The translations under genes and the position numbers were made by a program. The notes below the pieces were generated by a model. That model was not told the DNA's origin, did not search any database, and saw nothing but the letters and a program-made list of their open reading frames with translations. Shown piece after piece: positions 5,781 through 45,786 of a DNA stretch of 64,000 nt (its first letter is position 1; each line of letters opens with the position of its first letter). The DNA comes from Microbacterium sp. 67-17 (GTDB taxonomy: Bacteria; Actinomycetota; Actinomycetes; Actinomycetales; Microbacteriaceae), in assembly GCF_001898325.1 (NCBI RefSeq), contig NZ_MKTR01000014.1:102531-166530 (forward strand). Reading direction: 5' to 3'.

Positions 5781-5804
5781 CAGTCGGGATAGAGGACTAG
5801 AGAC

Positions 5805-6644: not shown

Positions 6645-6657
6645 GTAGGAACAGAAG

Positions 6658-6939
6658 ATGCCACGCAGTCTCAAGAAGGGCCCCTTCGTCGACGAGCACC
6701 TGCTTCGCAAGGTCGTCTCCCAGAACGAAGCCGGGACCAAGAACGTCATCAAGACCTGGTCGCGCCGCTCGATGATCATCCCGGCCATGCTCGGCCACAC
6801 GATCGCCGTGCACGACGGTCGCAAGCACATCCCTGTGTTCGTGAGCGAGACCATGGTCGGCCACAAGCTGGGCGAGTTCGCGCCCACCCGCACCTTCCGC
6901 GGCCACGAGAAGGACGACAAGAAGGGCCGCCGCCGCTGA
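6658..6939 (+). CDS. rpsS: 30S ribosomal protein S19
   Basis: A 93-residue protein (uS19) of the 30S head that contacts the A-site finger and S13. [15 protein letters not shown] and the [10 protein letters not shown] motif identify it, and the length is normal. It lies 13 bp after rplB. Confidence 0.99.
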
Positions 6940-6964
6940 CGCGGTGGCGCAAGAGGAGAGAGAA

Positions 6965-7363
6965 ATGGTGGAGTCCATCGCACGCGTGCGACACATCCGC
7001 GTGACCCCTCAGAAGGCTCGTCGTGTCGTCGCGCTCATCAAGGGCAAGCAGGCCGAAGAGGCCCTCGCGATCCTGAAGTTCGCGCCGCAGGGTGCGAGCG
7101 AGCCGATCTACAAGCTGGTCGCATCGGCTATCGCCAACGCTCGCGTGAAGGCCGACAACGAGGGAACCTACTTCGACGAGGGTGCGCTGTTCGTCAAGAA
7201 CGCGTACGTCGATGAGGGAACGACGCTCAAGCGGTTCCAGCCGCGCGCGCAGGGTCGTGCATTCCAGATCAAGAAGCGCACCAGCCACATCACGGTCGTT
7301 CTCGCAACGCCCGAGGTCGCTGAGACGGCGCCCGCTGCCAAGACCAAGAAGGCGAGCAAGTAA
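6965..7363 (+). CDS. rplV: 50S ribosomal protein L22
   Basis: A 132-residue protein (uL22) whose beta-hairpin lines the exit tunnel at the macrolide site. The ATG at 6965 is preferred over an in-frame GTG at 6944 because AGGAGAG (6954-6960) lies just upstream of it and the product then starts [20 protein letters not shown], as in the family. The hairpin end [17 protein letters not shown] is intact. A short Ala/Lys-rich tail follows the core. The last base is shared with the rpsC start (TAATG). Confidence 0.97.
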
Positions 7364-29750: not shown

Positions 29751-29843
29751 ACGTCGCCGGCTCCGCAGCGCTGAGCCCACACCTTCGCGCGCGAGGCCAC
29801 AGGATTCTTCGAACGGAAGGTGCGGGTTCGGAGCAAGCCGTGT

Positions 29844-29879
29844 GGGTTCGGTGGGAGGACGGGGTTCGGCGGGAGGACG
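29844..29879. repeat. Tandem 18-bp repeat, two copies
   Basis: GGGTTCGGTGGGAGGACG (29844-29861) is followed directly by a copy with one change (29862-29879). It lies between two convergent genes, just before a terminator hairpin. Confidence 0.7.
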
Positions 29880-29881
29880 GG

Positions 29882-29901
29882 GCCCCCGCAAGAACGGGGG
29901 C
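29882..29901. terminator. Bidirectional terminator between GNAT and acyltransferase genes
   Basis: GCCCCCG (29882-29888) and CGGGGGC (29895-29901) form a 7-bp stem with a 6-nt loop, reaching the stop codon of the minus-strand acyltransferase gene. It can serve both converging genes. Confidence 0.6.
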
Positions 29902-31898
29902 TACTGCGCGATGCGAGCGTCGGCGCGGGTGGCCTCGCGGTAGGCGCGGGTCTCGGTGAGGTACTCGTCGATCGCGCGCTGGTTCTCGGACTGACGGATC
30001 GCGGCGAGGACCGTATCGGCATAGATCTGGCCGCCCGAGGTTCCGGGATGGATGCGGTCACCGGCCAGGTAGTCCACGTGCGGGTCGATGGCGCTCGCCC
30101 AATCGGCGATCATCGTGCCCGGATGCGCGGCCGCAAACGCCGTGATGTCGCTGTTGACGCCCGGGATCCAATCGCGCGGCGCGTAGGCGTTCACGAGCAC
30201 GAGGGTTCTGTCAGGGCCGGCAGTGGCGGCCATCCGTTCATAGGCATCGTGACTGATCGGGCCGTTCGTGCCGAGGGCGATGACGACGTAACGGCCCAAC
30301 TGCCCGGCAGCAGCGAGCTGATCGATGATGCCCGGTCCCGCCCACGAGGAGCGCGACACCGCAGCATCCACCCGGATGCCGGGAAGCGTGTCATACAACG
30401 AGGGAGCGGCCGCGAGCATGACCGAGTCGCCGACAGCGGTGATCTCGCCGCCCGAGATCGGGGTCGGTGACGGGGCGGGCGGCCTCACGGCTCCGTCGGC
30501 GAGAGAGCCGTGAGGCGCAGGCTCATCGGGCTGCGGTCGGGCATCCGTCGACGGTGTCGGGCTGGCGGACGCGGCATCGACAGCTGCCTGGCCCTCGGCG
30601 ACAACTGCCTCACCGGATGACACGCTCGCTCCGGTGAGGGCGGCGGCGACAGTCCCGAACACGAGGGCCGTTGTGGCCAGGCTCCCGATGACGGTGCCCC
30701 ACAGCGCCCCGGCATCGACCCCGACGCGTGCCCGTGCCGCACGCCAGGTCCCGCGGAAGCCGAGACGTCGCACGGGTGTTTCCAGGAATCGGTAGGAGGC
30801 CTCCGCAATGACGACGGTAAGCGCCAGGGTCAGTAGGCCGGCCCAGAGCGGAACTCCCGCCTCCGGTGCTGTGCCCTGCACGGCGGCGACCAGCAGCACG
30901 AGCAGGGGCCAGTGCCAGAGGTAGAGGCCGTAGGAGCGCTCGCCGATCCAGCGCAGGGGGCGCGCGTCGAGAGCGTCGCCGAGCCGCGCGTGGGGCCAGA
31001 CTGCCGCAACGATCGCGATTCCAGCCAGCGCGCTTGCGGCGGCGATCGTCAGGGGGAAGGTGAGGACGGAGTCGGTGGGCGCGAGAAGGGACAGCCAGAT
31101 GAGGCCGGCGACGGCGGCTGCGCCGAGGACCGTGGCGCCGCGGCGGACCGCCCTGCGCTGCATCCACAGCGCGGGCGCAGCCAGGGCGTGGTGCAGCACG
31201 AACGCGAGTGCGACCCCGAGAAGGATGCCGAAAGCGTGAGAATCGGTACCGTAATACGCGCGGCTGACGTCGCCCGTCGACGACACGATCTCGCCCATCC
31301 ACACGGCGGATGCTGCTGCCATCGCGACCGCCGCTACAACCCGCGCCCAGGTGCGCGGCAGCAGCAGGATCAGCGGCAGCATGAGCGGCCAGAGCACGTA
31401 GAACTGCTCTTCGATGCCGAGTGACCAGAGGTTCCGGTAGAGCTCCGGCGTGGTTCCGCCGAAGTATCCCTCGCCGATGAAGATCGCGACCCAGTTGTAA
31501 CTGAAGGTGAGGGCGCCGGCGATCTGGGCGCCCAACCGGACCAGAACATCGCCGCCGATGATCCACGCGGCACTCGAGCACACGAGCAGGAGCAGAACCA
31601 GCGCGGGCAGCAGGCGCCTGGCCCGTCGTCGCCAGAATCCGACGAGGCTGATCCGGCCGGTCGCGGAGCGCTCGCGAAGCAGCAGGGTGGTGATCAGGAA
31701 ACCACTGATCACGAAGAAGACATCGACGCCGATGAACCCGCCGACGAACCACCACTGCGGGAACAGGTGGTAGACGACGACGAGGATGACGGCGAGCGCG
31801 CGCAGGCCATCCAGGCCAGGCAGTCGGGCGCCCTGGCTGGCGCCCTGGCTGGCGCCGGGCGTGACACCGTGAGGGTCGGTGGGGAGGGGGCTGGACAT
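29901..31898 (-). CDS. Acyltransferase-3/SGNH membrane protein (OatA-like)
   Basis: A 665-residue membrane O-acyltransferase that probably acetylates a cell-envelope glycan. The N-terminal part has about ten membrane helices with GLDGLRALAVILVVVYH, the catalytic-His and RxxR signatures of the acyltransferase-3 family, and IGVDVFFVISGFLI. After a Pro/Ala linker comes an extracellular SGNH-like hydrolase domain (block I ITAVGDSVMLA, block III ALGTNGP, block V DRIHP). The ATG at 31898 is preferred to an in-frame GTG at 31931 because a TAGACT -10 box (31935-31940, minus strand) would place the transcript start between them. A GASQ duplication lies near the N-terminus. Nearby polysaccharide genes suggest a wall or capsule substrate. 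Confidence 0.88.
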   Translation of the reverse strand: MSSPLPTDPHGVTPGASQGASQGARLPGLDGLRALAVILVVVYHLFPQWWFVGGFIGVDVFFVISGFLITTLLLRERSATGRISLVGFWRRRARRLLPALVLLLLVCSSAAWIIGGDVLVRLGAQIAGALTFSYNWVAIFIGEGYFGGTTPELYRNLWSLGIEEQFYVLWPLMLPLILLLPRTWARVVAAVAMAAASAVWMGEIVSSTGDVSRAYYGTDSHAFGILLGVALAFVLHHALAAPALWMQRRAVRRGATVLGAAAVAGLIWLSLLAPTDSVLTFPLTIAAASALAGIAIVAAVWPHARLGDALDARPLRWIGERSYGLYLWHWPLLVLLVAAVQGTAPEAGVPLWAGLLTLALTVVIAEASYRFLETPVRRLGFRGTWRAARARVGVDAGALWGTVIGSLATTALVFGTVAAALTGASVSSGEAVVAEGQAAVDAASASPTPSTDARPQPDEPAPHGSLADGAVRPPAPSPTPISGGEITAVGDSVMLAAAPSLYDTLPGIRVDAAVSRSSWAGPGIIDQLAAAGQLGRYVVIALGTNGPISHDAYERMAATAGPDRTLVLVNAYAPRDWIPGVNSDITAFAAAHPGTMIADWASAIDPHVDYLAGDRIHPGTSGGQIYADTVLAAIRQSENQRAIDEYLTETRAYREATRADARIAQ

Positions 31899-31984
31899 CG
31901 GTAGCTCGATGGGGGGTGCGGGTTCGGGCACCCAAGTCTACGTCCGGGCGGGGGGTGTTCCCTGGGGCTGCGCCGGGTGCTGAT

Positions 31985-31990
31985 TAGGCT
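31985..31990 (+). promoter_or_regulatory. -10 box (TAGGCT) for a leaderless truA mRNA
   Basis: TAGGCT ends 6 nt before the truA GTG. It is divergent from the TAGACT box of the acyltransferase gene, 45 bp away. Confidence 0.55.
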
Positions 31991-31996
31991 GAAGAG

Positions 31997-32848
31997 GTGC
32001 GCATCCGGCTCGACATTTCCTATGACGGCTCGCACTTTCGCGGGTGGGCCAGGCAGCCGCATCAACGGACCGTGCAGGGAACCATCGAGGGCGCGATTTC
32101 TCGCGTGCTCGGGGGAGATCCCCGGCTGGTCGTCGCGGGCCGAACGGATGCCGGGGTGCACGCGAGCGGCCAGGTTGCTCACCTGGATCTCGACGACGGG
32201 CAGGCCGCGCGGCTCGCATCCACGCGTCGGCGCGGTGAGGATGACGACGGCGTAGCGGCGCTGGCCCGTCGCATCCGCGGCGTGCTCGGCGCGTACGCCG
32301 ACGCCGCGGTGACCCGCACGTCGATCGCGCCCGACGGCTTCGATGCGCGGTTCTCGGCCGTGTGGCGCCGCTACGAGTATCGGGTTGCCGACGATTCCGT
32401 TCCCTACGTTCCCCTGGAACGGCACCGCACCACCCTGGTGCGCGGTGAGCTCGATGTCGCGGCCATGGATGCCGCAGCCGGCGCACTGCGGGGGTTGCAT
32501 GACTTCGCCGCGTACTGCAAGCCGCGGGAGGAAGCGACGACGATTCGCACGCTGCTCGATTTCGGATGGGTGCGCGAGGCCTCCGGCGTGCTGGTCGCCA
32601 CGGTTCGAGCTGACGCGTTCTGCCACAGCATGGTGCGCGCGCTGGTGGGTGGGTGCGTTGCGGTCGGTCAGGGACGACTCACCGTCGACGATGTCGTGCG
32701 CATCCGTGACGAACTCGTCCGTGTTCCCGAGGTCAAGGTGCTGGCTGCCCGCGGGCTCACCCTCACCGAGGTCGGGTACCCGGCCGATGAGCTGCTCGCG
32801 CAGCGCGCGTCGCAGACCCGCGCACGGCGGGACCTCGACACCGACTAA
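31997..32848 (+). CDS. truA: tRNA pseudouridine(38-40) synthase
   Basis: Makes pseudouridine at positions 38-40 of the tRNA anticodon arm; 283 residues. MRIRLDISYDGSHFRGWARQ and AGRTDAGVHASGQVAH (catalytic Asp in RTDAGVH) are diagnostic, with FDARFSAVWRRYEYR and the C-terminal FCHSMVRALVGG. The GTG start at 31997 has no leader, with a -10 box 6 nt before it. In other actinobacteria truA often follows rplQ directly; here a GNAT gene and an acyltransferase gene intervene. Confidence 0.96.
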   Translation: MRIRLDISYDGSHFRGWARQPHQRTVQGTIEGAISRVLGGDPRLVVAGRTDAGVHASGQVAHLDLDDGQAARLASTRRRGEDDDGVAALARRIRGVLGAYADAAVTRTSIAPDGFDARFSAVWRRYEYRVADDSVPYVPLERHRTTLVRGELDVAAMDAAAGALRGLHDFAAYCKPREEATTIRTLLDFGWVREASGVLVATVRADAFCHSMVRALVGGCVAVGQGRLTVDDVVRIRDELVRVPEVKVLAARGLTLTEVGYPADELLAQRASQTRARRDLDTD

Positions 32849-32922
32849 CGAGGGCGGGCGCCCGCGGATGCGTAGACTGATCCCACCCCTGCGCGGGGTG
32901 AGGTTGGTGATCCCGAGGGGGG

Positions 32923-33588
32923 ATGGAGATGAAGGCCGTTGGTCGCAGCGACGCGAGCGTCGGCATCCGTGAGGGTCAACCGGTGCGCGCTCTCGCGCGG
33001 GCGGGTGTGATCGCCGGATTTCTCGTGCTGCCGCTCGCGCTCGCCGGGTGTGGACCCGCTCCGTGGAACAACTGGGGCTACGAGACTTCGAGTCCGACGC
33101 CCACGTTCACCCGCCAGACCGTTGCCCCACCGGTCAAGAACGACCTCTCCAGCGGCTCGACGCAGCGAGACCTCCAGGCCGGTGCTGTGAAGGCCACCGT
33201 CGACTACTGGTCGACACTGTCGATGGACAAGTGGACTGCTGATGCGCTCAAGCCCATCAGCCTGTCGCTGATCACGGTGGTGGAGCCCAACGACGGTCAG
33301 AAGGTCTACTTGCAGCGGGCGACGATGGTCGCGGTGCCGCAGAGCGACACCGGAGATCTCGCTCCGCTGAATCCGCAGGTGGATGCCGCGAGCGTCAACC
33401 CCGGCTATCTCGTGCTCTCGCCCTACAGCTACTCCCAGAACTTCACTGTCGGTCCGGTGCCATCCAACGCGATCTCGGTGACGGTGCAGTTCACGTACGA
33501 CTTCCTCGTACAGACGACGCCGACCTCGAGCGAGTACGCGAAGCAGACGGCATCCGACACGCTAACGATAGCCATCGCGCAGCAGTAG
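32923..33588 (+). CDS. Lipoprotein, unknown function (related to 36571-37344)
   Basis: A 221-residue predicted lipoprotein. An unusually long N-terminus precedes the hydrophobic segment VIAGFLVLPLALAGC, whose lipobox LAGC gives Cys near residue 43. The mature domain has a Pro/Thr-rich start, then a beta-rich fold with KVYLQRATMVAVPQ and AISVTVQFTYDFLVQ. The pattern of short motifs resembles the lipoprotein at 36571, suggesting distant paralogues. It stands at the edge of the glycosyltransferase/GH6 cluster. A TAGACT box (32873-32878) lies 45 bp upstream. No family was recognised. Confidence 0.75.
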   Translation: MEMKAVGRSDASVGIREGQPVRALARAGVIAGFLVLPLALAGCGPAPWNNWGYETSSPTPTFTRQTVAPPVKNDLSSGSTQRDLQAGAVKATVDYWSTLSMDKWTADALKPISLSLITVVEPNDGQKVYLQRATMVAVPQSDTGDLAPLNPQVDAASVNPGYLVLSPYSYSQNFTVGPVPSNAISVTVQFTYDFLVQTTPTSSEYAKQTASDTLTIAIAQQ

Positions 33589-33625
33589 CACGAGCGCGCA
33601 GCAGTAGCGCTTCCCGACAGGAGAG

Positions 33626-34786
33626 TCAGGTGGTGACGCGCTCCCAGCGGTCGCCACCCTGCGCCCGGGCCGCTGCTGCAGCCTCGGCCGTCGTCGTAAG
33701 CAGGGCGTCAAGGTCATATCCCGATGTCGCGACGCTCGCCCAGCCGACGCTGGCTGAGGTGGTCACGGTGATCGGAGCCTCCGGGTCGCGCACGGCGATG
33801 TGTCGGAGGACGTCGCGCACGAGCTCTCGGATGACTGCCTCGGGGCGCGAAACCAGCACGATGACAGCGCTGTCGGGAGCGATCGCGACGTCGGCATCCG
33901 TGGGGAAGACCGCGACGACGCGAGACTGGACCTCGCGGATGAGTCGACCGAAGATGGCGGGGCCTCCCGCCGCTTGCAGATCTTCAGCGTCGTCGAGTTC
34001 GATGCGCAGCAGCGACCAGGTACCGGCATCCCGCGCGGCTGCGCGTTCGAGACGTTCGCGGGCTGTCCCGACGAACCGATCCCAGTCCCGCTGCGGCGCC
34101 CCGGACTCGATCGCTTGCGTCCCGGGGGTCACGAGCGGCACCAGTGACACAAGGGCGCAGACCATGTACACGAGCATTCCGATCGCGTTGAAGATGCGCG
34201 TCGACGCGAAGGCCTCGGCCGTGGAGAGCGGGGTGAACAGGGCGCCGATGAGCACCGCGACGCCGGTGAGCGCGTAGACCGCCGAGGAGATGACGATGGG
34301 CCACAGCACGCGCTCGGACCGCTCCGGGATGCGCCGCCACTCGAGGAGGAACAGCGCGCCGAAGATCGAGGACACGAAGAACACGACGCGGTAGGCAAGG
34401 CCGAACAGGTCGGAGTCCCCGACCGCCAGGAGAGCGCCGATCGAGGCCGCGGCGACCACGGCGCTGATCCATGCATACGTGCGCACCTTGCGGTGGGCGC
34501 GCAGTCCCGACCACAGCAGCGCCGGGGCGCCCATCAGCAGACCCATCGATCCTCGCCGCAGTTCCTCGGACTCGGCGGCAGTCGCAGCGAGATAGCCGAA
34601 GCAGGCCACCATGATGCCCATGAACGTCAGCGACCACAGCAGCGTCGAGCGGCGGGGCCGCGCGAGAAACGCCAACCCGACGAAGAGGATGGTGCCGAGG
34701 GTTGCGATGGTCGCGTGGGCGATACCGATGCTCGCGCCGCCGAGGTCCGGCCAGGGCAGCTCACCGGGTGCAGGAAAGAACATCAC
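33626..34786 (-). CDS. Seven-helix membrane protein with degenerate GGDEF-like domain (1)
   Basis: A 386-residue protein. About seven membrane helices (residues 18-230) are followed by a cytoplasmic domain of some 150 residues with the pattern of a GGDEF fold (SLLRIELDDAEDL, LIREVQSRVVAVFP, ITVTTSASVGWA, closing helix TTTAEAAAAARAQGGDRW). The GG(D/E)EF signature and metal-binding acids are not visible, so it is probably not an active diguanylate cyclase. Its ATG overlaps the sensor kinase stop by 4 nt, so the two are translated together and probably work in one pathway. A similar protein lies at 37372-38469. The GGDEF assignment is by pattern only. Confidence 0.65.
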   Translation of the reverse strand: MMFFPAPGELPWPDLGGASIGIAHATIATLGTILFVGLAFLARPRRSTLLWSLTFMGIMVACFGYLAATAAESEELRRGSMGLLMGAPALLWSGLRAHRKVRTYAWISAVVAAASIGALLAVGDSDLFGLAYRVVFFVSSIFGALFLLEWRRIPERSERVLWPIVISSAVYALTGVAVLIGALFTPLSTAEAFASTRIFNAIGMLVYMVCALVSLVPLVTPGTQAIESGAPQRDWDRFVGTARERLERAAARDAGTWSLLRIELDDAEDLQAAGGPAIFGRLIREVQSRVVAVFPTDADVAIAPDSAVIVLVSRPEAVIRELVRDVLRHIAVRDPEAPITVTTSASVGWASVATSGYDLDALLTTTAEAAAAARAQGGDRWERVTT

Positions 34787-36417
34787 GACTCCGGGGCGAC
34801 GGAACGGGGGAGGTGAAGAGTGACCGTCGTGCCGTGACCGAGTTCACTCGTCATCGTGAGGGTGCCACCGTGTGCTGTCACGATCTCGCGCGCGATGCCC
34901 AGACCAAGCCCGGTGCCAGGCGCATGCTCCTGGGCGCGCGTACTGCGAAACAGAGGGTCGAACACGTGCTCGAGATCCTCGGACGCGATGCCGATGCCGG
35001 TGTCGGCGACCACGATCACGGCGGTGTCCCCGTCCAGCGACGCCGAGACCTTCACCGATCCGCCAGCTGGCGTGTACTTCACGGCGTTGCTGACGACGTT
35101 GTCGAGAACCTGGCGAAGGCGGAACACGTCGCCATCCATCCACAGGTGAGGGGGGAGGTCGGCGTCCAGCGTCACGCTCTGTTCTCGAGCAGTCGCAGCG
35201 AAAGCTTCTCCGACGGCGGCCAGCATCGGGACGAGGTCGAACGAGCGGCGGTCCTGGGTGGGGGTGAATCCGCGGCGCGAGCGTTGCAGCATCGTCGAGG
35301 CGATACCGAGCATCCGTTCGCTGGCGGAGAGGATCGTCTCGAGGTGGTCCCGGATCTTCGGGGTCAGCTCGTCCTCTTCTTCGAGTGCTAGGTCGGCGTG
35401 GCCGATGATGACGGTCAGCGGATGCCGCAGCTCGTGGGAGGCCACCGCCGCGATCCGCTCGCGCTCGCGCTCGGCCTCGGTAACCGCGGTGATGTCGTGG
35501 GCGACGAGCATCGTCGATGCAGAGTCGTCGGCTGACGAGGTCAGCGGCATGGTTGTCACCGACAGGGCGTGCCAGGTGCCTTCGGCGTCGAAGATCCAGA
35601 CGCGGGCATCCTCGAAGATCTCGCCGCGCTGCGCACGCGCGAAGGTCCGCTCGGATGCCGGAATCGCCGTCCCTTGCAAAGATGCGTACTCGACGGAGGT
35701 GGGCGGTGAGCTGGGGTCGTTGAGGCTCGTGCCGTAGAGGCGGTCGTAGGTGGTGTTGGCGGCCAGCAGTGATCCGTCACGAGCGAAGCGCAGGATGCCG
35801 ACATCCACGCCATTGATCAACTCGATCGTGCTTCGCTCAGCAGCCGATACCCGTTCGAGCGTGGTCTCCAGACGCCGCGTCTGGCCGAGAAGCAACCGCT
35901 TGAACGCCCGCGTCTGGCGCATCGTGATGTTCGCCGTGACACCCAGGAAGGTGACGCCCAGGAGCACCGTGAACAGTTCGACGGCGCCGGGCGGTTCGGT
36001 GGAGGTAGCGGCTTCGATCAAGAGGGAACCGGCGATTGTGACGATGGCGGCCGCGAGGGCCCAGCGCGTGAAGTGCAGGCCGATCCACATGATCGGGAAG
36101 ACCCAGAAGAAACCGAGCGGCAGGATCGAGGATGCCGCCATGAACCCGACGGCGACGATGTCGGCGAACGGGATGATCAGCGGCGACCACCGGGGTGCGC
36201 GGGCCCAGGGTACGACAAGTGTCACCGCGGTTGCAGCGATGATGATGGCCACCCCGGTGAGCATGAGCCACGACTCGAACAGTTCCGGCTCGTAGCCGAG
36301 CGATACGACCGAGATGATGATGATCGAGACGCCGAGGGAGAGCTGCGTGAGCCAGATCGACCTCACTCGCATCGTCGCGCCGTCGACGTCGCGGAATTGC
36401 GCGTCTCTTGCGCTCAC
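34783..36417 (-). CDS. Membrane sensor histidine kinase with PAS domain
   Basis: A 544-residue kinase. The GTG at 36417 has GGGGGAG upstream and excludes a longer open frame. Residues about 18-150 hold five or six membrane helices, followed by a helix and PAS domain (about 185-310, TIELINGVDVGILRFARDGS). HisKA has phospho-acceptor His328 in SHELRHPL, and HATPase has N box DNVVSNAVKYTP, G1 DTGIGI and G2 GTGLGLGIA. It is co-translated with the degenerate GGDEF membrane protein. The only response regulator in the cluster (40249-41415) is about 4 kb away and is a likely partner. The signal is unknown; with so many helices it may sense the membrane. Confidence 0.92.
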   Translation of the reverse strand: MSARDAQFRDVDGATMRVRSIWLTQLSLGVSIIIISVVSLGYEPELFESWLMLTGVAIIIAATAVTLVVPWARAPRWSPLIIPFADIVAVGFMAASSILPLGFFWVFPIMWIGLHFTRWALAAAIVTIAGSLLIEAATSTEPPGAVELFTVLLGVTFLGVTANITMRQTRAFKRLLLGQTRRLETTLERVSAAERSTIELINGVDVGILRFARDGSLLAANTTYDRLYGTSLNDPSSPPTSVEYASLQGTAIPASERTFARAQRGEIFEDARVWIFDAEGTWHALSVTTMPLTSSADDSASTMLVAHDITAVTEAERERERIAAVASHELRHPLTVIIGHADLALEEEDELTPKIRDHLETILSASERMLGIASTMLQRSRRGFTPTQDRRSFDLVPMLAAVGEAFAATAREQSVTLDADLPPHLWMDGDVFRLRQVLDNVVSNAVKYTPAGGSVKVSASLDGDTAVIVVADTGIGIASEDLEHVFDPLFRSTRAQEHAPGTGLGLGIAREIVTAHGGTLTMTSELGHGTTVTLHLPRSVAPES

Positions 36418-36570
36418 CTTGTGCTCCCCCTTAGGCAGCGTTGAGTTCAGGCCTTTGTTCGTATCGTATACTTCCAGCGCATCCGGCTTGTGGAACCCGC
36501 CACGAGCCCGAGATAACCGCGGAATATCAGCCTTCGATGCCCTGCACGTCGGCCCGCTCAAGGAGAAACC
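36418..36570. promoter_or_regulatory. Divergent promoter region between kinase and lipoprotein
   Basis: This 153-bp AT-richer gap separates the divergent kinase and lipoprotein genes. TATACT (36467-36472) is a good -10 for the lipoprotein, with TTGAGT 20 nt upstream as a weak -35. On the minus strand TATACG overlaps the same site. One regulator could control both sides. Confidence 0.45.
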
Positions 36571-37344
36571 ATGGCCACCGCCCCGCAACCGTCGCGCACC
36601 GTACGCCGCGTCGTGCTCGGCGCCGCCGCACTGGCTTTGGGCGCCTCGTCCTTGACCGGATGCCAGCAGATCGCCGAAGCATTCAATTCGATCCAGGGTG
36701 AAGCACCCAGCACCGCATCGACGGCGACACCGGTGCCGCAGCCGGTCTCGACGACTGCCGCGATGGACTTCGACTCACTGTTCTCGTACGACGGGTCGGT
36801 TTCGTTGACGACAGATGTCGCATCCGACCTCGAGGTCGTGCTCGATGTGTGGGCGGCTGACCCGAAGCGCACCCGCGAGTGGACGCCGAACAACGAGAAG
36901 GTGTTCGGGTTCGCGATCAACGCGTACGACCGTCGGGTCGATGACAAGGCAGTGTTGGCGCAGAAGCGCCGGGTCTATGTGTCCTCGATCTCGATCACGT
37001 CACAGACCGCACAGACCTCGGGGATGGTGCAGCAGCCGTTTCAGTTCGCCGCCGACCCCCGGACGCTGGTGCCACCGGACACGCTGCGCTCGGACCGTGG
37101 GCTGCTGCTCAACAGCTATCAGGGCGGGCTGCTCGTTCCCGAGACGACGATCTTCATGCTGCCGGCCGACACCTACGGCATCACACTGCAGTTCTCGTTC
37201 GGCATCTACGTCGAGGGCACGGCAAACGACGATGCCTCGTTCGCGCAGCAGACGATCTATCAGTACCTGCCGATCGCGATCTACAACGATCAGGGCACGC
37301 TGAACATCGTGGCCAACCAGCCGACAACGGCGCCGCAGGGCTGA
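36571..37344 (+). CDS. Lipoprotein, unknown function (related to 32923-33588)
   Basis: A 257-residue predicted lipoprotein. Signal MATAPQPSRTVRRVVLGAAA leads to lipobox LTGC (Cys near residue 31). The mature part has a short Ser/Thr/Pro linker, then a domain with KRRVYVSSISI, FQFAADPRTLVPPD and ITLQFSFGIYVEG, and a C-terminal FAQQTIYQYLPIAI that aligns loosely with the end of the first lipoprotein. AAGGAGAAA precedes the ATG. It is divergent from the sensor kinase, and a periplasm-side accessory or sensory role in the polysaccharide cluster is inference. Confidence 0.75.
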   Translation: MATAPQPSRTVRRVVLGAAALALGASSLTGCQQIAEAFNSIQGEAPSTASTATPVPQPVSTTAAMDFDSLFSYDGSVSLTTDVASDLEVVLDVWAADPKRTREWTPNNEKVFGFAINAYDRRVDDKAVLAQKRRVYVSSISITSQTAQTSGMVQQPFQFAADPRTLVPPDTLRSDRGLLLNSYQGGLLVPETTIFMLPADTYGITLQFSFGIYVEGTANDDASFAQQTIYQYLPIAIYNDQGTLNIVANQPTTAPQG

Positions 37345-37371
37345 TCGGGCCACCGCGCCGCGCCGCCCCGG

Positions 37372-38469
37372 TCAGGCGATCGCGCCGCCCGCCGGACTGG
37401 TCTTGAGGTCTCTGGTGCCGGGTGGAGCTGCGTCGGGCCAAACAGCGGCGAGCTCCTCCTCGGAGCGCAGTGCATAGCGCGTCACGCGGACCTCGATCGC
37501 TTCGCGATAGTCGAGGTTCGGCACGGCTCTCGCCGTCGCGGCCTTCACCACGTCATCGAGGTTCTCGATGCGCTGGTCGCCTGACACCGCGACGACGTGG
37601 CGACCGACCCGACCACGGTGGGCGGCATCGGGCAGCAGCTCATGAAGCGCCATCGACGCTGCGCGGTCGACCGCTACTGCTGCCGGGCCACCGAAGGCTG
37701 CGCGGATGAGGGCGAGGTCGGGAACCTCGACGACATAGACCGTCACTGCACCGTGGGAGGCGATATCTGAGCGCAGCGCATTGATGATGTATTCGATCTG
37801 GCGGGCTCGAGTCTCGAGCGCGCGATCGCTCCACCACACTGCAACGCACAGTGCCGTCACGAGCGCGATGCTCAGGACGGATGCCGTGAGGGGAGAAAAA
37901 AGGGTCCGGAAGGTGGGAGCGCTCTCACCGACAGCGAAAAACAGCACGATACGGATCGCCGAGTATGCGGCGTAGATCGCAAAGATGACTCCGATCAGCC
38001 GGAAAGGTGCGATGGTTCGTGCCGGCAGACGGAAAGCTTCGACCGCGACGCCCCCGCACCCCACGGCGACCAGGATCAGCCGCAGCACGAAGCCGTCGGT
38101 CGGACCTCCGATGACGGCGCTGACCGTTGCGCTGGTGACGAAGGTGACGGCGACGGCTCCCGCAACGACCCAGCCTGGGGCCATCGAGTTCTCGCGCAGC
38201 TGTCGCATTCCCGCCCAGGAGTATGCGGGCCCACCGACCAGTGCCGCGTTCGCCGCGGCGATGATGATCGGCGTCGGGTGTTCGGGCACGAGAGCTGATG
38301 CGATACCGGCAACGACTCCGCTCAGGGCTGCGGCCGCGGCAAAGCGCAGGAAGTTCCGCCGTGCGGCGCGGCCACCATTGGGGACCGAGGCTGCGGGAAA
38401 CTGGACGAGGGCCGGAGCAGCGATCACAACGGCGATCGCCAGGACGGCAGACAACTCCAGTACACTCAT
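37372..38469 (-). CDS. Membrane protein with degenerate GGDEF-like domain (2)
   Basis: A 365-residue protein with about seven membrane helices (residues 3-225) and a C-terminal domain of about 130 residues (AVTVYVVEVPDLALIRAAFGG..., GRVGRHVVAVSGDQ) whose length and strand pattern resemble the C-terminal domain of the protein at 33626-34786. No GGDEF signature is present. The ATG at 38469 was chosen because the first helix begins right after it (MSVLELSAVLAIAVV) and AGAAG precedes it; a GTG 12 codons earlier is possible. It is divergent from the glycosyltransferase gene, which it may control allosterically. Confidence 0.6.
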   Translation of the reverse strand: MSVLELSAVLAIAVVIAAPALVQFPAASVPNGGRAARRNFLRFAAAAALSGVVAGIASALVPEHPTPIIIAAANAALVGGPAYSWAGMRQLRENSMAPGWVVAGAVAVTFVTSATVSAVIGGPTDGFVLRLILVAVGCGGVAVEAFRLPARTIAPFRLIGVIFAIYAAYSAIRIVLFFAVGESAPTFRTLFSPLTASVLSIALVTALCVAVWWSDRALETRARQIEYIINALRSDIASHGAVTVYVVEVPDLALIRAAFGGPAAVAVDRAASMALHELLPDAAHRGRVGRHVVAVSGDQRIENLDDVVKAATARAVPNLDYREAIEVRVTRYALRSEEELAAVWPDAAPPGTRDLKTSPAGGAIA

Positions 38470-38630
38470 TTTGCACTTCTGTTTCTCGGGGCCTCGGGTT
38501 TTCACCGGAGGCTTTCTTGAGGAAAACCTGAGGTGATGCTCTTCGACAACAGACCGGATGCTTGAGCCGAGTGTAGCAGTGTGGTAACAGCACTTCGGAT
38601 GGCACGCGGATTGATGGAAGGAGCGTGCTG

Positions 38631-40223
38631 ATGTCCCACTGGGAAGCCCCGTACGTTCCTCCGTACCCGCAGCAAGGTCAGCCCGCGATCGGGCAGTACC
38701 CGGGCACGGCTTACGCGGGTCCGCAGTACGCGGATCCGGCCTCCGGCCAGCAGTACGCGCAGCCGCAGTACGCGCAGCCGCAGTACGACCCCCGGTTCCC
38801 GAACGCGCAGGTCGAGACCTCTCACGCCGAGTTCACCGACGAGTTCGAGTCGGTGCTCGAGCGCATCTCTGTGCACCGGTCGACGATCGGATGCGTCATC
38901 CCCTGCTACAACGAGGAAGAGTCGATCGCCGGCGTCCTCGAGGGTCTGCTGCACCAGACGCGCGTGCCGGACGTCATCCATGTCGTGGTCAACAACACGA
39001 CTGACGCGACTGTCGCCATCGCTTCGCAGTATGCCGGCCCGCACCAGGTCGTCACCGATCTCGGGGAGCAGTTCACCGAAGTCTTCATCCACGACATCGG
39101 CAAGAACCCCGACAAGAAGGTCGGTGCGCTGAACTACGGCTACGCCCTTGTCGAGGGGTATGACTACCTGCTCGGCGTCGACGGTGACACCATCGCTGAT
39201 GAGCGCGCGGTGGAGTACCTCGAGACCGAAGCCGTGGGAGACTCCCGGATCGGTGGCATCTCGGCGATCTACACGATCGACGACCGGCCTATCAAGGGCC
39301 TGATCGGCAAGTTCCTGATCGCCGGTCAGCGCACGCAGTTCGCGGCCTTCAATCTGCAGAACCTGCTGCGCGGACGCAACATGGCGGTGCTCGGCGGCCA
39401 GTTCTCGATCTTCTCGACGGCGGCGCTGCGCGATGTCATGCGCGCCAACCACCAGAGCACGCCCTGGGTGAAAGACAGCGAGGTGGAGGACTCGCTCCTC
39501 TCACTGCAGATCAAGAGCGCGGGCTACCTCACCAAGATCAGCCCGTACGCGCGAGCCAGTGTGGGCGGCATGACCACCCTCAAGGGGTATGACGCGCAGC
39601 AGGTGAAGTGGACCTACGGCGCCATCGAGCTCATGTGGCCCGGTCAGCGCGGCGACACGAAGGGGCAGCCCTTCCACCCGAACCTGCGCCTTCGGTGGTT
39701 CGAGAACTTCGGCATGCTTACGAACCTGTTCGTGCGTGTCGCGTTCCTGACGCTGCTTGCCGCATCGCTGTCGATCAATGCCTTCGTCTTCTCGCCCTGG
39801 TGGCTCATTCCACCTCTGGTGGCGACGCTGCTGAACCTTCGTGTCGCCCTGACGATGAAGTACGTGAACCAGCGAGACATCCTGTTCTCGGCACTGGTGT
39901 TTCCCGCGGAGATCTTCATGTGGATCCGTATCGGCCACTTCCTGCGGTCGTGGTCGTCGTTCCTGTCGCGCAAGAAGGTCGACAACTGGGCAGCCCAGGC
40001 GAAGGCCGAGAAGGGTGGCGGGGTATCCCTCGGACACTGGGTTCCCATGATCCTGCTGGTGCTCACCGCGCTCGCGATGGCTTTCATCTGGAACCTGCTG
40101 GACCCGGTGGTGCAGTCGTCCATCCTGTGGATCGGGTGGCCGATCGTGGGTGTCGTCACCGTCATCCAGACGCTGCTCATGGCCTTCAAGCTGTTCCGTC
40201 GGCAGTACGGCTACAAGGTCTGA
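38631..40223 (+). CDS. Processive family-2 glycosyltransferase (cellulose/hyaluronan synthase-like)
   Basis: A 530-residue membrane glycosyltransferase. The ATG at 38631 fits AAGGAG (38618-38623) better than a GTG at 38625. The first 55 residues are cytoplasmic low complexity (PQQGQPAIGQY, QYAQPQYAQPQYD). The GT2 domain (about 85-340) has VIPCYNEEES, the UDP-sugar/metal motif DGDT (184-187), acceptor loop GGQFSIF, VED (285-287) and QQVKW (323-327), which corresponds to QxxRW of processive synthases with Lys for Arg. Four or more C-terminal membrane helices follow. A GH6 enzyme, a kinase and a response regulator nearby resemble beta-glucan synthesis loci, so a cellulose-like product is likely but not proven. 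Confidence 0.88.
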   Translation: MSHWEAPYVPPYPQQGQPAIGQYPGTAYAGPQYADPASGQQYAQPQYAQPQYDPRFPNAQVETSHAEFTDEFESVLERISVHRSTIGCVIPCYNEEESIAGVLEGLLHQTRVPDVIHVVVNNTTDATVAIASQYAGPHQVVTDLGEQFTEVFIHDIGKNPDKKVGALNYGYALVEGYDYLLGVDGDTIADERAVEYLETEAVGDSRIGGISAIYTIDDRPIKGLIGKFLIAGQRTQFAAFNLQNLLRGRNMAVLGGQFSIFSTAALRDVMRANHQSTPWVKDSEVEDSLLSLQIKSAGYLTKISPYARASVGGMTTLKGYDAQQVKWTYGAIELMWPGQRGDTKGQPFHPNLRLRWFENFGMLTNLFVRVAFLTLLAASLSINAFVFSPWWLIPPLVATLLNLRVALTMKYVNQRDILFSALVFPAEIFMWIRIGHFLRSWSSFLSRKKVDNWAAQAKAEKGGGVSLGHWVPMILLVLTALAMAFIWNLLDPVVQSSILWIGWPIVGVVTVIQTLLMAFKLFRRQYGYKV

Positions 40224-40232
40224 CGGTCTCGC

Positions 40233-40256
40233 GCCCGTCCCGGAACGGCTACGGGC
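40233..40256. terminator. Bidirectional terminator between glycosyltransferase and response regulator
   Basis: GCCCGT (40233-40238) and ACGGGC (40251-40256) with inner CCG/CGG pairs form a hairpin that overlaps the response-regulator stop. The convergent genes are 25 bp apart. Confidence 0.5.
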
Positions 40257-41415
40257 CCGGCGGCGGGGCGACGTTTTCGGCGGTCATGCGGTAGCCGACG
40301 CCCCGCACGGTCTCGACATAGCGCGGGTTGTTCGGGTCGTCGCCGAGCTTGCGGCGCAGGTTCGTCATGTGCGCTTCGATCGCACGTTTGTCGGCATCCC
40401 CGACGAAATACGACGTGACGTAGGACTCGCCGCGCAGCACAAGCGTCAGGTCGGCTTTGCTGCGTACGCGCCGCTTGGACTCCATCAGGGTCGCCAGCAG
40501 CTCGAACTCCGTGCGGGTGAGTTCTACCTCACGGTTGCCGACCAGTACGATCCGCGAGTCCGGGTCGAGGATGAGGTCACGGTGGACCATGGTGTGGGGG
40601 CCGAGGTGGTGACCTCCGGGACCGGCTATCGGGGCGCTCGGGGGTGTGCGTGCCACCAGCTGCGATCCGGGAGGCTGCTGGCTCCCGCCGGCGCCCGGGG
40701 GGTCGACCGGTGCCTGCGGTGTCGGGGGATAGTACGGGTGTGCGCCCCCCGGCTGCGGATAAACCGGATACTGACCCGGGTAGCCGGGCTGGGGTGGGGC
40801 CTGGGTCGGCTGTTGGCCTGCCGGGTACGGAGCCTGCGCGGGAGGCGAGCCCGGAGCCTGCGCGGGGTCACCGGGGGTGACCGCTCCGCTCGCATCGATG
40901 GTGGCGAACGGCTGCTGCGCTGCCGGGGGAACGGCGCTGGGCTGCGCGGGCTGGGTGACGATGGCGGGTCGTGCGCCAGGGAATGAGGGGCCCGAGGGTG
41001 CCTGCACGGGCGGCAGGGTGGCAGTCGGAGTCTGACGGGGGCGGCGCAGGAGCGCTTCGATCCGTGCCCGCAGCTCCCGTGGACGGAACGGCTTGACGAT
41101 GTATTCATCGGCGCCGGCGCCGAGACCCAGCACGACGTCGGCCTCGTCCTCGAGTCCCGTCAGCATGATGATGTAGGTGTCGCTCTGGGCACGGATGCGG
41201 CGAGCAGCTTCGAATCCGTCGATGCCGGGCATGTTCACATCGAGTGTCGTGATCAGCGGCTGGTAGGACAGCACAGCGCGCACGCCGTCGATGCCGTTGC
41301 CCACCGAGACCGTGGAGAATCCGGCAGCCTCGAGTGTCTCGGCGAGGATATGCCGAATCTGCGGATCATCCTCGACAATGACGGCGGTCTTGCTCACCCC
41401 CGCGTCAGTGCTCAT
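40249..41415 (-). CDS. Response regulator (REC plus winged helix) with very long Pro/Gln linker
   Basis: A 388-residue OmpR/PhoB-type transcription factor. The receiver (1-122) has acidic pocket ED (15-17), phospho-acceptor Asp59 (TLDVNMPG), Thr86 and Lys108 (VKPF). The C-terminal winged helix (about 290-385) has VELTRTEFELLATLMES, LRRKLGDDPNNPRYVETVRGVGYR. The linker is about 160 residues of Pro/Gln/Tyr/Ala-rich sequence, whereas normal linkers are under 20. The start is at ATG 41415 (MSTDAGVSKT); an open frame further upstream has no coding character. Probable partner of the kinase at 34783-36417 and regulator of the neighbouring glycosyltransferase and GH6 genes. Confidence 0.92.
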   Translation of the reverse strand: MSTDAGVSKTAVIVEDDPQIRHILAETLEAAGFSTVSVGNGIDGVRAVLSYQPLITTLDVNMPGIDGFEAARRIRAQSDTYIIMLTGLEDEADVVLGLGAGADEYIVKPFRPRELRARIEALLRRPRQTPTATLPPVQAPSGPSFPGARPAIVTQPAQPSAVPPAAQQPFATIDASGAVTPGDPAQAPGSPPAQAPYPAGQQPTQAPPQPGYPGQYPVYPQPGGAHPYYPPTPQAPVDPPGAGGSQQPPGSQLVARTPPSAPIAGPGGHHLGPHTMVHRDLILDPDSRIVLVGNREVELTRTEFELLATLMESKRRVRSKADLTLVLRGESYVTSYFVGDADKRAIEAHMTNLRRKLGDDPNNPRYVETVRGVGYRMTAENVAPPPGP

Positions 41416-41585
41416 GCTCGGTGGTCTCTTTCGCGTCGGGCTGGGTGGTCGCGTCGGGCTGGGTAGTGGGGCATGGACCGCGCAATCCCAGGTGTTCGCG
41501 GCCGTCTCCCCCGATCGTACACAGCCGCGCCGGGACCGGGGGTGGTCATTCGTCGGCGTGTGCCCGCGTCCTCGGGGCCCGGTGC

Positions 41586-42656
41586 TCAGGGAAGAGTGAC
41601 GTTGCGGGTGAGTTCGACAGCCGACGGGGGCCACCACGCGCCGGCTACCGGTCCGCCGTTGCAGGTGCCGTCGCTTTCGCCCGGCGGCTTGATCCAGAAG
41701 TTCGTGTCGACCACGTCGTCGCCGTAGGTGCCGCCCGGGGCGCCGATGAGTCGGCCCGGCGGGTTGCACCACTCGCCGTTCGACCCGGCGCCGTTGCGTG
41801 AGGTATCGATGATCGCGTGGAGTCCGCCCGTGAGGCCGGAGAGCTGGTGCGCGTAGTCGAACTCGAGCGCGGTGTCGTTGTAGTTCGACACGTTCGTTGC
41901 GAAGCCGCGGATGACATCGTTCATGCCGATGCCGTTGATGAGCTCGGCCATCTGTGACGCGGGCAGCCAGGTCGAGTGACCGCCGTCCACGTAGATCCAG
42001 GTGTTCGTCGAGGCGAGTCGGGCGATGGCATCCCGCAGCTGAGTCGTGCGGTCGGCGAGGTTGCCGCACTCCGGTGCGAGGGCAAGGCTGTCGGGCTCAA
42101 GGACGACGGTCTTCTGGATGTCGGGTGCGGCGTGCAGGGCATCACCGATGATCTGTGTCCACTCCGCGTAGGCTGCATCGTCGAGTCCGCCCGCCGAGAG
42201 GCCGGCGCTGCAGTCCCGCTCGGGAAGTCCGTAGACCACGATCGCCAGTGCATGGCCCTGCGTGCGCGCTTCGTCCAGGAGGTTCGTCATTCGTGCGCCG
42301 ATTTCGCTCACCGGATCGATCTCCGGGGTCAACCAGTACGCGGTGGGTTGTGCGGCAAGGTAGGCAGTCGCCGCGAACTCGTCGGTGCCCTCGGGGAGGT
42401 CAGGAAGCGCGAGGGCAGCCTTCGATTCCTCGGGTGCGATGATCGTCGTCCCGACGGCCGGTGCTGTCGCGGTCAGGTCACGAACCCAGTGACTCAGGAA
42501 CATCCAGACCGTCGCCGCGATGGATGCCACCAGAAGCACGCCGACGCCGACGATCGTCGCGATCGCCCAACCGGGCAGGATCTTCGGCTGTGATTCCGGG
42601 CGCACCGCAGCAGTCTGGGGCTGTTCGTGCACCGCGGAGGTGCGTCGGGAAGGCAC
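41586..42656 (-). CDS. Membrane-anchored GH6 endoglucanase
   Basis: A 356-residue glycoside hydrolase family 6 (cellulase) enzyme facing outward. One membrane helix (about 29-53) precedes the catalytic domain. GH6 signatures are VVYGLPERDC (Asp148), VLEPDSLA (Asp189, catalytic acid by family comparison), YVDGGHSTWL, GFATNVSNY, DTSRNGAG and WIKPPGESDG. The GTG at 42656 is chosen because a TAGAGT -10 box ends 6 nt before it (leaderless). In Streptomyces a GH6 enzyme (CslZ) is encoded with the cellulose-synthase-like CslA; the same pairing here supports a role in trimming or releasing a beta-1,4-glucan. Confidence 0.93.
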   Translation of the reverse strand: MPSRRTSAVHEQPQTAAVRPESQPKILPGWAIATIVGVGVLLVASIAATVWMFLSHWVRDLTATAPAVGTTIIAPEESKAALALPDLPEGTDEFAATAYLAAQPTAYWLTPEIDPVSEIGARMTNLLDEARTQGHALAIVVYGLPERDCSAGLSAGGLDDAAYAEWTQIIGDALHAAPDIQKTVVLEPDSLALAPECGNLADRTTQLRDAIARLASTNTWIYVDGGHSTWLPASQMAELINGIGMNDVIRGFATNVSNYNDTALEFDYAHQLSGLTGGLHAIIDTSRNGAGSNGEWCNPPGRLIGAPGGTYGDDVVDTNFWIKPPGESDGTCNGGPVAGAWWPPSAVELTRNVTLP

Positions 42657-42662
42657 GACCAA

Positions 42663-42668
42663 ACTCTA
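42663..42668 (-). promoter_or_regulatory. -10 box (TAGAGT) for a leaderless GH6 mRNA
   Basis: On the minus strand TAGAGT ends 6 nt before the GTG at 42656. No clear -35 is visible. Confidence 0.5.
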
Positions 42669-42800
42669 GCGGAGCGCCCTTTGATAGCTGCTGGGATGCT
42701 CACGAACTCCCTCGTGCGGTGAAGAGATCGCAAACGCTGGGGATATGTCCAGCGCAGCGCGCGCGGTCGGCAGCCGTGCCCCTCTATCGTGGGGAGTGGC

Positions 42801-43514
42801 ATGAAGGTCATCTCGTACAACCTGCGCAAGCACCGAGCTGCAACCGAGCTGCGAGAGCTCGTCGAGCGTCACGGCGCTGATCTGCTTTGTCTGCAGGAAG
42901 CCGACACCACCGACATCCCTGACGCGATCGGTGGCCTCGTGCTCGCCGACTCGACGCAGCGCAACCGCCTGGGGCTGGCCGTCTACTACCGCGAGAACAC
43001 GTATCGCGCCGTTGACGTGCGAGCCATCGCCCTGAAGAAGTCGCTGCACGATCGCGTGCTCAAGCCCGCGGAGGAGCGGATGCTGGGCGTGCGCCTGCGC
43101 GACATCGACGCCGGCAGCGACATCGTCATCGCTTCGTTCCACGCGGCGCCGCTGACGGCGCTGAACTCGCTGCGTCGGCACCAGATCCGCACGGCGCTGG
43201 CCGAACTCGATCTGTTGGGCGAGGGGCTTCCGAAGCTCATGGTCGGCGACTACAACTACCCCGTGTTCAAAGAGCGCCTGGGGCAGCACGTGCGCGATCA
43301 GGGGTACGAACTGAACCTCAGCGACTCCCGGACCTATACGCGGTATCGGTTCTTTCGCGGGCACTACGACTTCGCGACATCCGTCGGCTTCACGATCGAT
43401 ACCGTGCGGACACTGCCGCAGGGTCTCAGCGACCACTTGCCGATCCTCGTGACGGCTGAACCGACGCCGGCTTCCGGCGCGGCGTCAACGGATGCCGCGA
43501 GCGGCGTCGCCTGA
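42801..43514 (+). CDS. Endonuclease/exonuclease/phosphatase (EEP) family protein
   Basis: A 237-residue EEP-fold phosphodiesterase or phosphatase. The ATG at 42801 follows GGGGAG. The conserved active-site series is present: N in SYNLRKH (metal), QE in LCLQEADT (Glu metal ligand), VGDYNYP (Asp/Asn) and the terminal SDHLP (Asp-His pair). There is no signal peptide, so it is cytoplasmic. It is shorter than many DNase I-like enzymes. The substrate (nucleic acid, phospholipid or inositol phosphate) cannot be told. It is divergent from the GH6 gene. Confidence 0.85.
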   Translation: MKVISYNLRKHRAATELRELVERHGADLLCLQEADTTDIPDAIGGLVLADSTQRNRLGLAVYYRENTYRAVDVRAIALKKSLHDRVLKPAEERMLGVRLRDIDAGSDIVIASFHAAPLTALNSLRRHQIRTALAELDLLGEGLPKLMVGDYNYPVFKERLGQHVRDQGYELNLSDSRTYTRYRFFRGHYDFATSVGFTIDTVRTLPQGLSDHLPILVTAEPTPASGAASTDAASGVA

Positions 43515-43556
43515 CACAGTCGCCTGACGCGGCGCGCGGTTCACGCCGGGCGCTGG

Positions 43557-43694
43557 TCAGCGGATCGCTGCCGCGTAATGCATGAAGGCGGCGTAGACGA
43601 GCACGCCGACCCCGGATGCCAGGAGTGCGACACCGATATAGAGCAGCCAGTTGCGGGACTTGCGGGGGCCTCGCGGTTCGTGGGGGCTGCTCAT
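43557..43694 (-). CDS. Small single-span membrane protein, 45 residues
   Basis: A 45-residue product: a basic start (MSSPHEPRGPRKSRNW), then one membrane helix (LLYIGVALLASGVGVLVYAAF), ending HYAAAIR. The reading frame has a sensible Arg/Lys-then-hydrophobic layout and lies alone between two gene ends, with AGGA upstream. Many actinobacteria encode such orphan small membrane proteins; the function is unknown. Confidence 0.65.
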   Translation of the reverse strand: MSSPHEPRGPRKSRNWLLYIGVALLASGVGVLVYAAFMHYAAAIR

Positions 43695-43752
43695 GATGCC
43701 CGATCCTAGCCAGATCGAGCCGAGCGCGAGTGACGTGCGTGTTACAGGAGGG

Positions 43753-45642: not shown

Positions 45643-45786
45643 GCTCGGATGCCTTCCTGTCTTCAGGGAAGCCTATTCGTCCGTACCCGAGTACACGATG
45701 AGAGGCAACCGCTAGACCTGCCGTAACACGCGCCCTCTAGGGTGGGGTGCTGGGCGACGAGCTGAGGGACGGAGGGATCGGGCCCC

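Follow-up and report, generated by a model that had tools for sequence, protein, structure and literature searches.

A conserved Microbacteriaceae gene cassette for a putative surface glycan, with a histidine kinase, a signature-less GGDEF protein, and a candidate 11-bp regulator repeat

A conserved glycan-synthase gene set in Microbacterium sp. 67-17

We analyzed a 64,000-nucleotide stretch of the Microbacterium sp. 67-17 genome (contig NZ_MKTR01000014.1, positions 102,531 to 166,530; hereafter the window), in which an eight-gene set occupies positions 32923-42662. The set comprises two lipoprotein genes (Lip1 and Lip2), two related membrane proteins (GG1 and GG2), a histidine kinase (HK), a family 2 glycosyltransferase (GT2), a response regulator (RR), and a family 6 glycoside hydrolase (GH6); all eight genes named in a preliminary description of this DNA are present. 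Judged by comparative genomics, the neighborhood is a conserved unit, and because it recurs in other genera the set is beyond chance. Our reading, to which we give a probability of roughly 0.53, is that this is a surface-glycan cassette run by a three-part phosphorelay, in which HK, a dead GGDEF protein, and RR would switch on the synthase and lipoproteins while GH6 would trim the product. The cassette gives Microbacteriaceae a candidate surface-glycan system. The genome is 3.14 Mb, and the nearest named relatives of its GT2 are from Microbacterium. Membrane helices of the window proteins were assigned by eye, and the start codons of HK, GG2, GT2, and RR were inferred; coordinates corrected from the earlier ones are those of RR (~40249-41415) and the probable starts of HK (36372) and GT2 (38631). 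The features are as follows.

32923..33588, + strand: Lip1, lipoprotein with a lipobox cysteine, of a family that co-occurs with GT2
33626..34786, - strand: GG1, multi-helix membrane protein whose GGDEF domain has neither the signature nor the inhibitory site (I-site), from profile matches and a residue table
34783..36372, - strand: HK, membrane histidine kinase, frame open to 36588
36396..36424, + strand: in the gap separating the HK and Lip2 starts, three CTTGNG-like repeats spaced by 11 bp that match the box weakly (3 mismatches in 14)
36571..37344, + strand: Lip2, second lipoprotein, with a lipobox cysteine and, by profile comparison, distant kinship to Lip1
37372..38469, - strand: GG2, second and more diverged member of the GG family, frame open to 38505
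38505..38533, + strand: candidate regulator box between GG2 and GT2, CTTGAGG-N4-CCTGAGG with a weaker preceding unit, 11-bp period
38631..40223, + strand: GT2, membrane glycosyltransferase with DGD, VED, and QQVKW; nearest, distant model PgaC/IcaA; frame open to 38625
40249..41415, - strand: RR, response regulator of the OmpR type whose two domains are joined by a long Pro/Gln-rich linker
41586..42662, - strand: GH6, endoglucanase-like, with intact motifs and a membrane anchor (by eye)

Conservation of the cassette across genomes

In a sample of 120 genomes of the family, with an orthologue defined as a protein of at least 50% identity, GT2 was present in 20. The lipoprotein profile matched in 18 of the 120, all 18 being among the 20 with GT2, and a match to the GG1 profile adjoined GT2 in 17 of the 18 genomes having both. 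Gene order was compared in 18 cassette loci of other genera (17 out of 20 stretches fetched, plus L222 from another family of the class). The six gene kinds were found all together in 14 of these, and 13 of the 14 read HK>GG> <Lip GT2> <RR <GH6; the sole departure among the complete loci was L222, where the lipoprotein gene follows GT2 on the same strand. The preliminary description had proposed checking synteny in related genomes, and the genes are indeed kept together in other genera; non-synteny was not found in these loci. In the window, HK and GG1 are oppositely oriented relative to GT2 compared with the other-genus order, and Lip2 and GG2 are extra. The incomplete loci are L167, without GH6; L168, without an adjacent lipoprotein; L156, without HK and GG; and L163, in which a contig edge lies directly past GT2 and puts RR and GH6 beyond reach. 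L162, with HK in two frames, was scored as complete. Its kinase (5592-7081, genome G009) occupies two frames that overlap, through what may be a frameshift or an assembly error, and the L162 stretch is present near both ends of one contig, perhaps as an assembly overlap.

Across 17 named loci from Microbacterium and relatives, HK and GG1 lay in the fetched flank of GT2 in 13, with L038 cut by a contig end. Within the genus, GT2 was found in 62 of 149 genomes, and a GG1-profile match lay within 8 kb in 47 of the 62 (a hand count at E 1e-57 or better, with G448 partial and two draws of 149 taken as identical). The match was on another contig in G457, G428, G455, and G440 and far off in G458 and G447. 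At the level of the phylum, a draw of 296 genomes held a GT2 match at 1e-30 in two only, the window's genome and that of L222. In one genome (G040), a GT2 of ~55% identity had no HK, GG, RR, or GH6 seen nearby and was directly followed by a weak Lip-like gene (32 bits). Since this GT2 adjoins a Lip-like gene without the rest of the cassette, the minimal enzyme may consist of GT2 and the lipoprotein.

Two narrower claims about the GG proteins failed. The idea that GG2 belongs to the old cassette is unsupported, as GG2 stands beside GT2 in only 9 of the 17 named loci; in the 120 genomes its profile found mostly the same proteins as that of GG1. Specificity of GG1 for the GT2 cassette was rejected, as 20 of the 37 family genomes with a GG1-profile match have no cassette (at least 5 of these 20 match through the GGDEF part alone). 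Genomes of the genus that have no GT2 can also give strong matches to the GG1 profile, which includes the L001 paralogue.

GGDEF domains without signature in GG1 and GG2

By profile, GG1 has a GGDEF fold in its tail. Although the window's protein itself does not match Pfam GGDEF at E 1, 9 of the 13 members of its alignment do. The GG1 profile, whose alignment includes the L001 paralogue, retrieved solved GGDEF domains and diguanylate cyclases (E 3e-9), and a profile of 13 other-genus homologues matched GGDEF over the whole domain (E 1e-19). In a residue table of 29 GG1-type proteins aligned with 16 reference domains from the same genomes, the references having been chosen for possessing the signature, GG(D/E)EF was found in none of the 29, and only 1 of the 29 had an acid at either acidic position. 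The RxxD I-site was likewise absent from all 29, compared to its presence in 13 of the 16 references. The positions that we take to equal Asn335 and Asp344 of PleD, presumably part of its guanine pocket, are conserved in 14 of the 16 members from other genera and in none of the 13 of the Microbacterium set (L001 counted in). Given the missing signature (0 of 29) and the missing Asn/Asp pair (0 of 13), the cyclase of GG1 looks long dead, and the Microbacterium branch looks to have lost the presumed guanine pocket as well. The GGDEF domain of the window's own genus is more worn than that in other genera.

GG2 is best described, from profile comparison, as a further diverged member of the same family. 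Sequence search gave it no GGDEF match; profile-profile comparison aligned it with the GG family across 295 columns, the tail among them (E 2e-20, probability 99.3). Its low-confidence model (predicted local distance difference test [pLDDT] score of 66.6) had no Foldseek match at E 0.001 or better (best E 0.03), and ~40 of the 50 matches listed for this weak model were GGDEF proteins. Of the two signature-less GGDEF tails first proposed for the locus, that of GG1 is upheld by profile, and in a wider range of genomes than first proposed, and that of GG2 just by kinship and a weak model. The window's genome encodes further relatives, a lone GG-family member with a weak tail match and no GGDEF signature (L172:7998-9290, contig C6) and an HK-GG pair whose GG also lacks the signature (L173:5361-8350, contig C23).

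Kinase, regulator, and the 11-bp direct repeat

HK contains HisKA and HATPase_c domains, with a PAS match below its cut-off, and RR has a receiver followed by the winged helix of OmpR/PhoB-type regulators. The last 4 bases of HK also belong to GG1, and an identical overlap occurs in the second kinase-GG pair of the window's genome (L001; L173). An HK-GG pair with a similar RR close by was also found at five loci without a GT2 orthologue (L181, L183, L184, L186, and L187, of which L186 holds a short GT2-like frame); no RR was seen at two further HK-GG loci of this type, L182 and L185. Because HK-GG-RR recurs without a GT2 orthologue in five loci, the three genes look like one module. Two-component systems with an accessory membrane protein exist as a kind, and the recurring HK, membrane accessory, and OmpR-type RR are what this module has in common with them; here, the accessory carries a dead GGDEF domain. 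Searches of the open-licence literature brought up no two-component accessory with a dead GGDEF domain, as judged by titles and abstract openings.

Alignment of 15 sequences upstream of GT2 revealed a conserved block of direct repeats with an 11-bp period and the consensus CTTGAGG-N4-CTTGMGG. A matrix trained on nine Microbacterium sites was scanned over whole loci, with either strand counted and GT2 starts partly set by hand. The top-scoring site lay no more than 500 bases upstream of GT2 in 14 of the 18 window and Microbacterium loci (training sites included) and, as an independent test, ahead of GT2 in 14 of the 18 other-genus cassettes; by chance, this would be expected in ~3% of loci (560 of ~19,000 bases). 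Seven other spacings gave 0, 0, 3, 0, 0, 2, and 0 (versus 14 of 18 at spacing 11), and 40 column-permuted matrices gave 0 to 5 of 18 (versus 14). At three loci with a GT2 relative and no cassette (L169-L171), the top site was never ahead of GT2, the second-ranked site of L169 being 98 bases upstream. Additional sites occur between Lip1 and Lip2 in L032, L033, and L045, and L184, in a genome without a GT2 match, has a box just ahead of its RR gene. The weak triplet at 36396..36424 should be read against the frequency of 3-mismatch matches by chance (29-35 per shuffled window). OmpR/PhoB-type regulators bind direct repeats of ~11-bp period, and we infer that RR may bind the CTTGAG repeats. The 11-bp repeat is a concrete candidate regulator target for this putative Microbacteriaceae surface-glycan system.

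The synthase, the hydrolase, and the nature of the polymer

GT2 matched PF13641 and PF00535 and carries DGDT, SEVED, and QQVKW; compared to DxD, TED, and QxxRW, its DGD, VED, and QQVKW are related, non-canonical residues. The cassette GT2s share these three motifs as well as hydrophobic stretches toward the C terminus. The PgaC/IcaA model (TIGR03937) was matched by all 20 aligned GT2s with the lowest E of any family listed (1.9e-17), the window's protein scoring 55 bits against a cut-off of 422.3, while the CelA model (TIGR03030) was matched by 1 of the 20 (E 0.026). No BcsA chain was among the nine PDB profile matches of GT2, all weak and extending over no more than the first portion of unrelated GT2 domains, and no PilZ domain was found in the window's GT2. 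A Pro/Gln/Tyr-rich N-terminal tail (38631-38820) is shared with L046. PgaC/IcaA is a processive family. From DGD, VED, QQVKW, and the hydrophobic C-terminal stretches, GT2 may be a processive membrane synthase. By profile, it is not a cellulose synthase, and the reading as a Streptomyces CslA system was rejected on the profile results.

GH6 matched PF01341 (E 1e-53), and its RDC, EPD, and PGESDG stretches align with solved GH6 enzymes, so that both the family profile and the catalytic Asp motifs are in place (which Asp is catalytic is our assumption). Solved relatives of the window's GH6 are mostly named cellulases. Both Lip1 and Lip2 have a lipobox cysteine; their kinship, claimed from the start, is significant over the last ~47 residues only (probability 91, E 1e-6). 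Neither matched a Pfam family, and the sole PDB match of the lipoproteins (E 0.22) is limited to the first 43 profile positions; an NCBIfam match of Lip2 to gpx7 (0.0016) was set aside as spurious. Outside Microbacterium, Lip2 homologues (L174-L176) lie in a housekeeping stretch next to what we take to be pyruvate kinase-like genes, and in L174 and L175 a gene presumably for an ANTAR-type regulator is close by.

The locus had been put forward as a beta-glucan export system. What stands is a conserved, probably regulated glycan-synthase set; a beta-glucan is only one candidate product, the nearest (distant) curated family being PgaC/IcaA rather than cellulose synthase and GH6 alone pointing to a beta-1,4 glycan. 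We regard it as a real possibility, if somewhat short of an even chance, that the polymer is no beta-glucan at all: GT2 would make an amino-sugar or other beta-linked polymer, and GH6 would mainly open the wall, as proposed for CslZ. The uniform match to PgaC/IcaA (at a score far below its cut-off) and the near absence of CelA matches favor this, as does the activity of CslZ on peptidoglycan, cellulose, and chitin (available text of PMC11022532); against it, the solved GH6 relatives are mostly cellulases by name, and no deacetylase was among the nine window proteins scanned. That GT2 is non-processive, loading a single sugar on a lipid or wall polymer, seems decidedly unlikely. It would fit the lack of membrane helices N-terminal to the catalytic domain (by eye), the weak and partial matches among solved structures, the departure of QQVKW from QxxRW, and additional matches to HpnB and other GT2 models, which are not polymer synthases. 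However, the best curated model is a processive family, the motifs and C-terminal hydrophobic stretches are kept in cassette members, and GT2 is in the constant company of a chain-cutting GH6.

Cyclic di-GMP enzymes in cassette genomes

GGDEF domains are usually taken as a sign of cyclic di-GMP (c-di-GMP) signaling. Our survey covered the window's genome and 17 cassette genomes of the family, 18 in all. EAL domains were present in nine and absent from nine, and no PilZ match above the cut-off was found in any of the 18 (one fell below it). In G000, G050, G043, G115, G101, G033, G108, G060, and G029, neither EAL nor a signature-bearing GGDEF domain was found (HD-GYP was not searched); their sole GGDEF matches are signature-less GG-type proteins. 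The window's genome is among these nine, and G101 is merely 85% complete. The signature check covered the 30 GGDEF loci with an assigned locus, 17 with the signature and 13 without (12 GG-type plus L213, which is not GG-type); none of the matches outside it came from the nine genomes. In four of the EAL-bearing cassette genomes (loci L153, L158, L160, and L166), a protein with an intact-signature GGDEF and an EAL domain adjoins GH6, its EAL motif reading ESL in three of the four. Relatives of this protein (40-49% identity to the four) adjoin HK-GG in L182 and L187, in genomes without a GT2 orthologue.

On these genome contents, the dead GGDEF domain coexists with c-di-GMP enzymes in some relatives, as the GGDEF-EAL protein beside GH6 shows for four, and is kept without them in others. 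In the window's genome, signature-less GGDEF membrane proteins are present and no signature-bearing GGDEF, EAL, or PilZ was found. The earlier proposal that dead GGDEF proteins replace c-di-GMP goes too far, because the dead GGDEF travels with the kinase even without a GT2 orthologue, because 9 of the 62 genus genomes with GT2 have no good GG1 match, and because four relatives have c-di-GMP enzymes; it may be kept as one reading only. A recognizable dead GGDEF is kept beside a kinase in nine genomes of seven genera in which no signature-bearing GGDEF or EAL was found, and these genomes therefore offer a clean setting for studying its role.

Proposed mechanism and its alternatives

In the phosphorelay that we propose, HK would sense an envelope or surface state together with GG1, its membrane neighbor acting as a kinase accessory. 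GG1 perhaps reads a guanine nucleotide where the Asn and Asp pocket is kept, and would work purely by protein contact in Microbacterium. HK would then phosphorylate RR, and RR would bind the CTTGAG repeats and turn on the GT2 and lipoprotein genes. GT2 would polymerize a sugar nucleotide and pass the chain outward, with the lipoprotein assisting on the outer face. Membrane-anchored GH6 would cut beta-1,4 links, either trimming the chain or opening a path through the wall.

Several observations weigh against this reading. The tie between RR and the repeats is one of co-occurrence only. L153 and L154 have no good box site, the upstream site is second-ranked in L161 and L163, and in the window itself the GT2-upstream box ranks second (16.0 bits versus 16.7 at 43659). 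No site exceeds 10 bits in three of the seven HK-GG loci without a GT2 orthologue (L181, L182, and L183), and L048 has GT2 and a box with no RR or GH6 found at its locus. BcsA has N-terminal membrane helices, whereas GT2 has none before its catalytic domain (by eye), and its AlphaFold model, from 17 close sequences only, has a pLDDT of 46.5. The cassette of G039 is without HK and GG. L033, L034, and L048 have no GG1 near GT2, with only weaker GG paralogues elsewhere in the genome (a search that covered 14 of the 17 named loci). Among the matches listed, 9 of the 62 genus genomes with GT2 (G470, G490, G557, G547, G446, G534, G465, G483, and G469) have no GG1-profile match better than 1e-39, a weaker one being found in at least seven.

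Other roles for GG1 are less probable. It is unlikely that GG1 is, or recently was, a c-di-GMP receptor like PelD, with the cassette under c-di-GMP control and GG1 a relic in c-di-GMP-free genomes. Such a role would fit the intact GGDEF-EAL protein, which adjoins GH6 in four cassette genomes and HK-GG in two genomes without a GT2 orthologue. PelD also offers an earlier example of a polysaccharide controlled through a dead GGDEF (available text of PMC7112168). On the other hand, the RxxD I-site is missing from all 29 homologues, and the GG1 frame is open beside the kinase in c-di-GMP-free genomes of several genera, unlike streptococcal PelD, which by the same source is without the degenerate GGDEF domain where c-di-GMP is absent. 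That GG1 is a functionless leftover, carried by its translational overlap with HK, strikes us as quite improbable. Its low conservation in the genus (30-41% identity to the window's protein) and its absence from some GT2-bearing genomes would fit, yet its open frame and place beside HK are kept in many genera, also without a GT2 orthologue; the window's genome has a second HK-GG pair; and N335/D344 are kept in most members outside the Microbacterium set. Beyond the phosphorelay reading, a bolder and rather unlikely version has GG1 as a membrane pseudo-cyclase that reads guanosine triphosphate (GTP) or guanosine tetraphosphate (ppGpp) through the kept Asn/Asp pocket, signals to HK by contact, and founds a c-di-GMP-independent class of GGDEF-fold proteins. 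If true, a polysaccharide synthase would be coupled to the nucleotide state of the cell without any second-messenger enzyme.

Comparison with described systems

The Streptomyces CslA-GlxA-CslZ system resembles the cassette in that an actinobacterial GT2 lies close to a GH6 bound to the membrane; the Streptomyces GH6, CslZ, is a putative lipoprotein. In the available text of PMC9040799 and PMC11022532, CslA is BcsA-like, with TED, QxxRW, and part of a PilZ domain; GlxA is its partner, and CslA is fully active only with c-di-GMP. In contrast, the cassette has VED, QQVKW, and no PilZ, and it sets its GT2 and GH6 beside a kinase, a dead GGDEF protein, a regulator, and lipoproteins; no GlxA-like gene was among the nine window proteins scanned. 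The poly-N-acetylglucosamine synthases PgaC/IcaA are the nearest curated GT2 family, at 55 versus 422 bits. Pel loci likewise have a degenerate GGDEF protein in a polysaccharide locus (available text of PMC7112168); PelD, however, binds c-di-GMP via an intact RxxD, while GG1 has no RxxD, lies beside a histidine kinase, and is kept where no c-di-GMP enzymes were found. A survey of synthase-dependent operons (PMC7112194) has neither "microbacterium" nor "gh6" in its available main text. As far as searched, no paper on this gene set is named in the open-licence literature, which is no proof of absence from print, and within that literature the cassette is apparently undescribed.

Flanking genes

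A gene that we take to be truA-like (31997-32848) flanks the set on the left, and an endonuclease/exonuclease/phosphatase gene (42789-43514) on the right. No match to RNA families was found in 29500-46000, nor any in a sigma-70 promoter scan. Farther right, a DUF4012 protein (PF13196, E 3e-45) is encoded at 43753-45642 on the - strand; 9 of the 17 named loci carry a homologue in their fetched flank.

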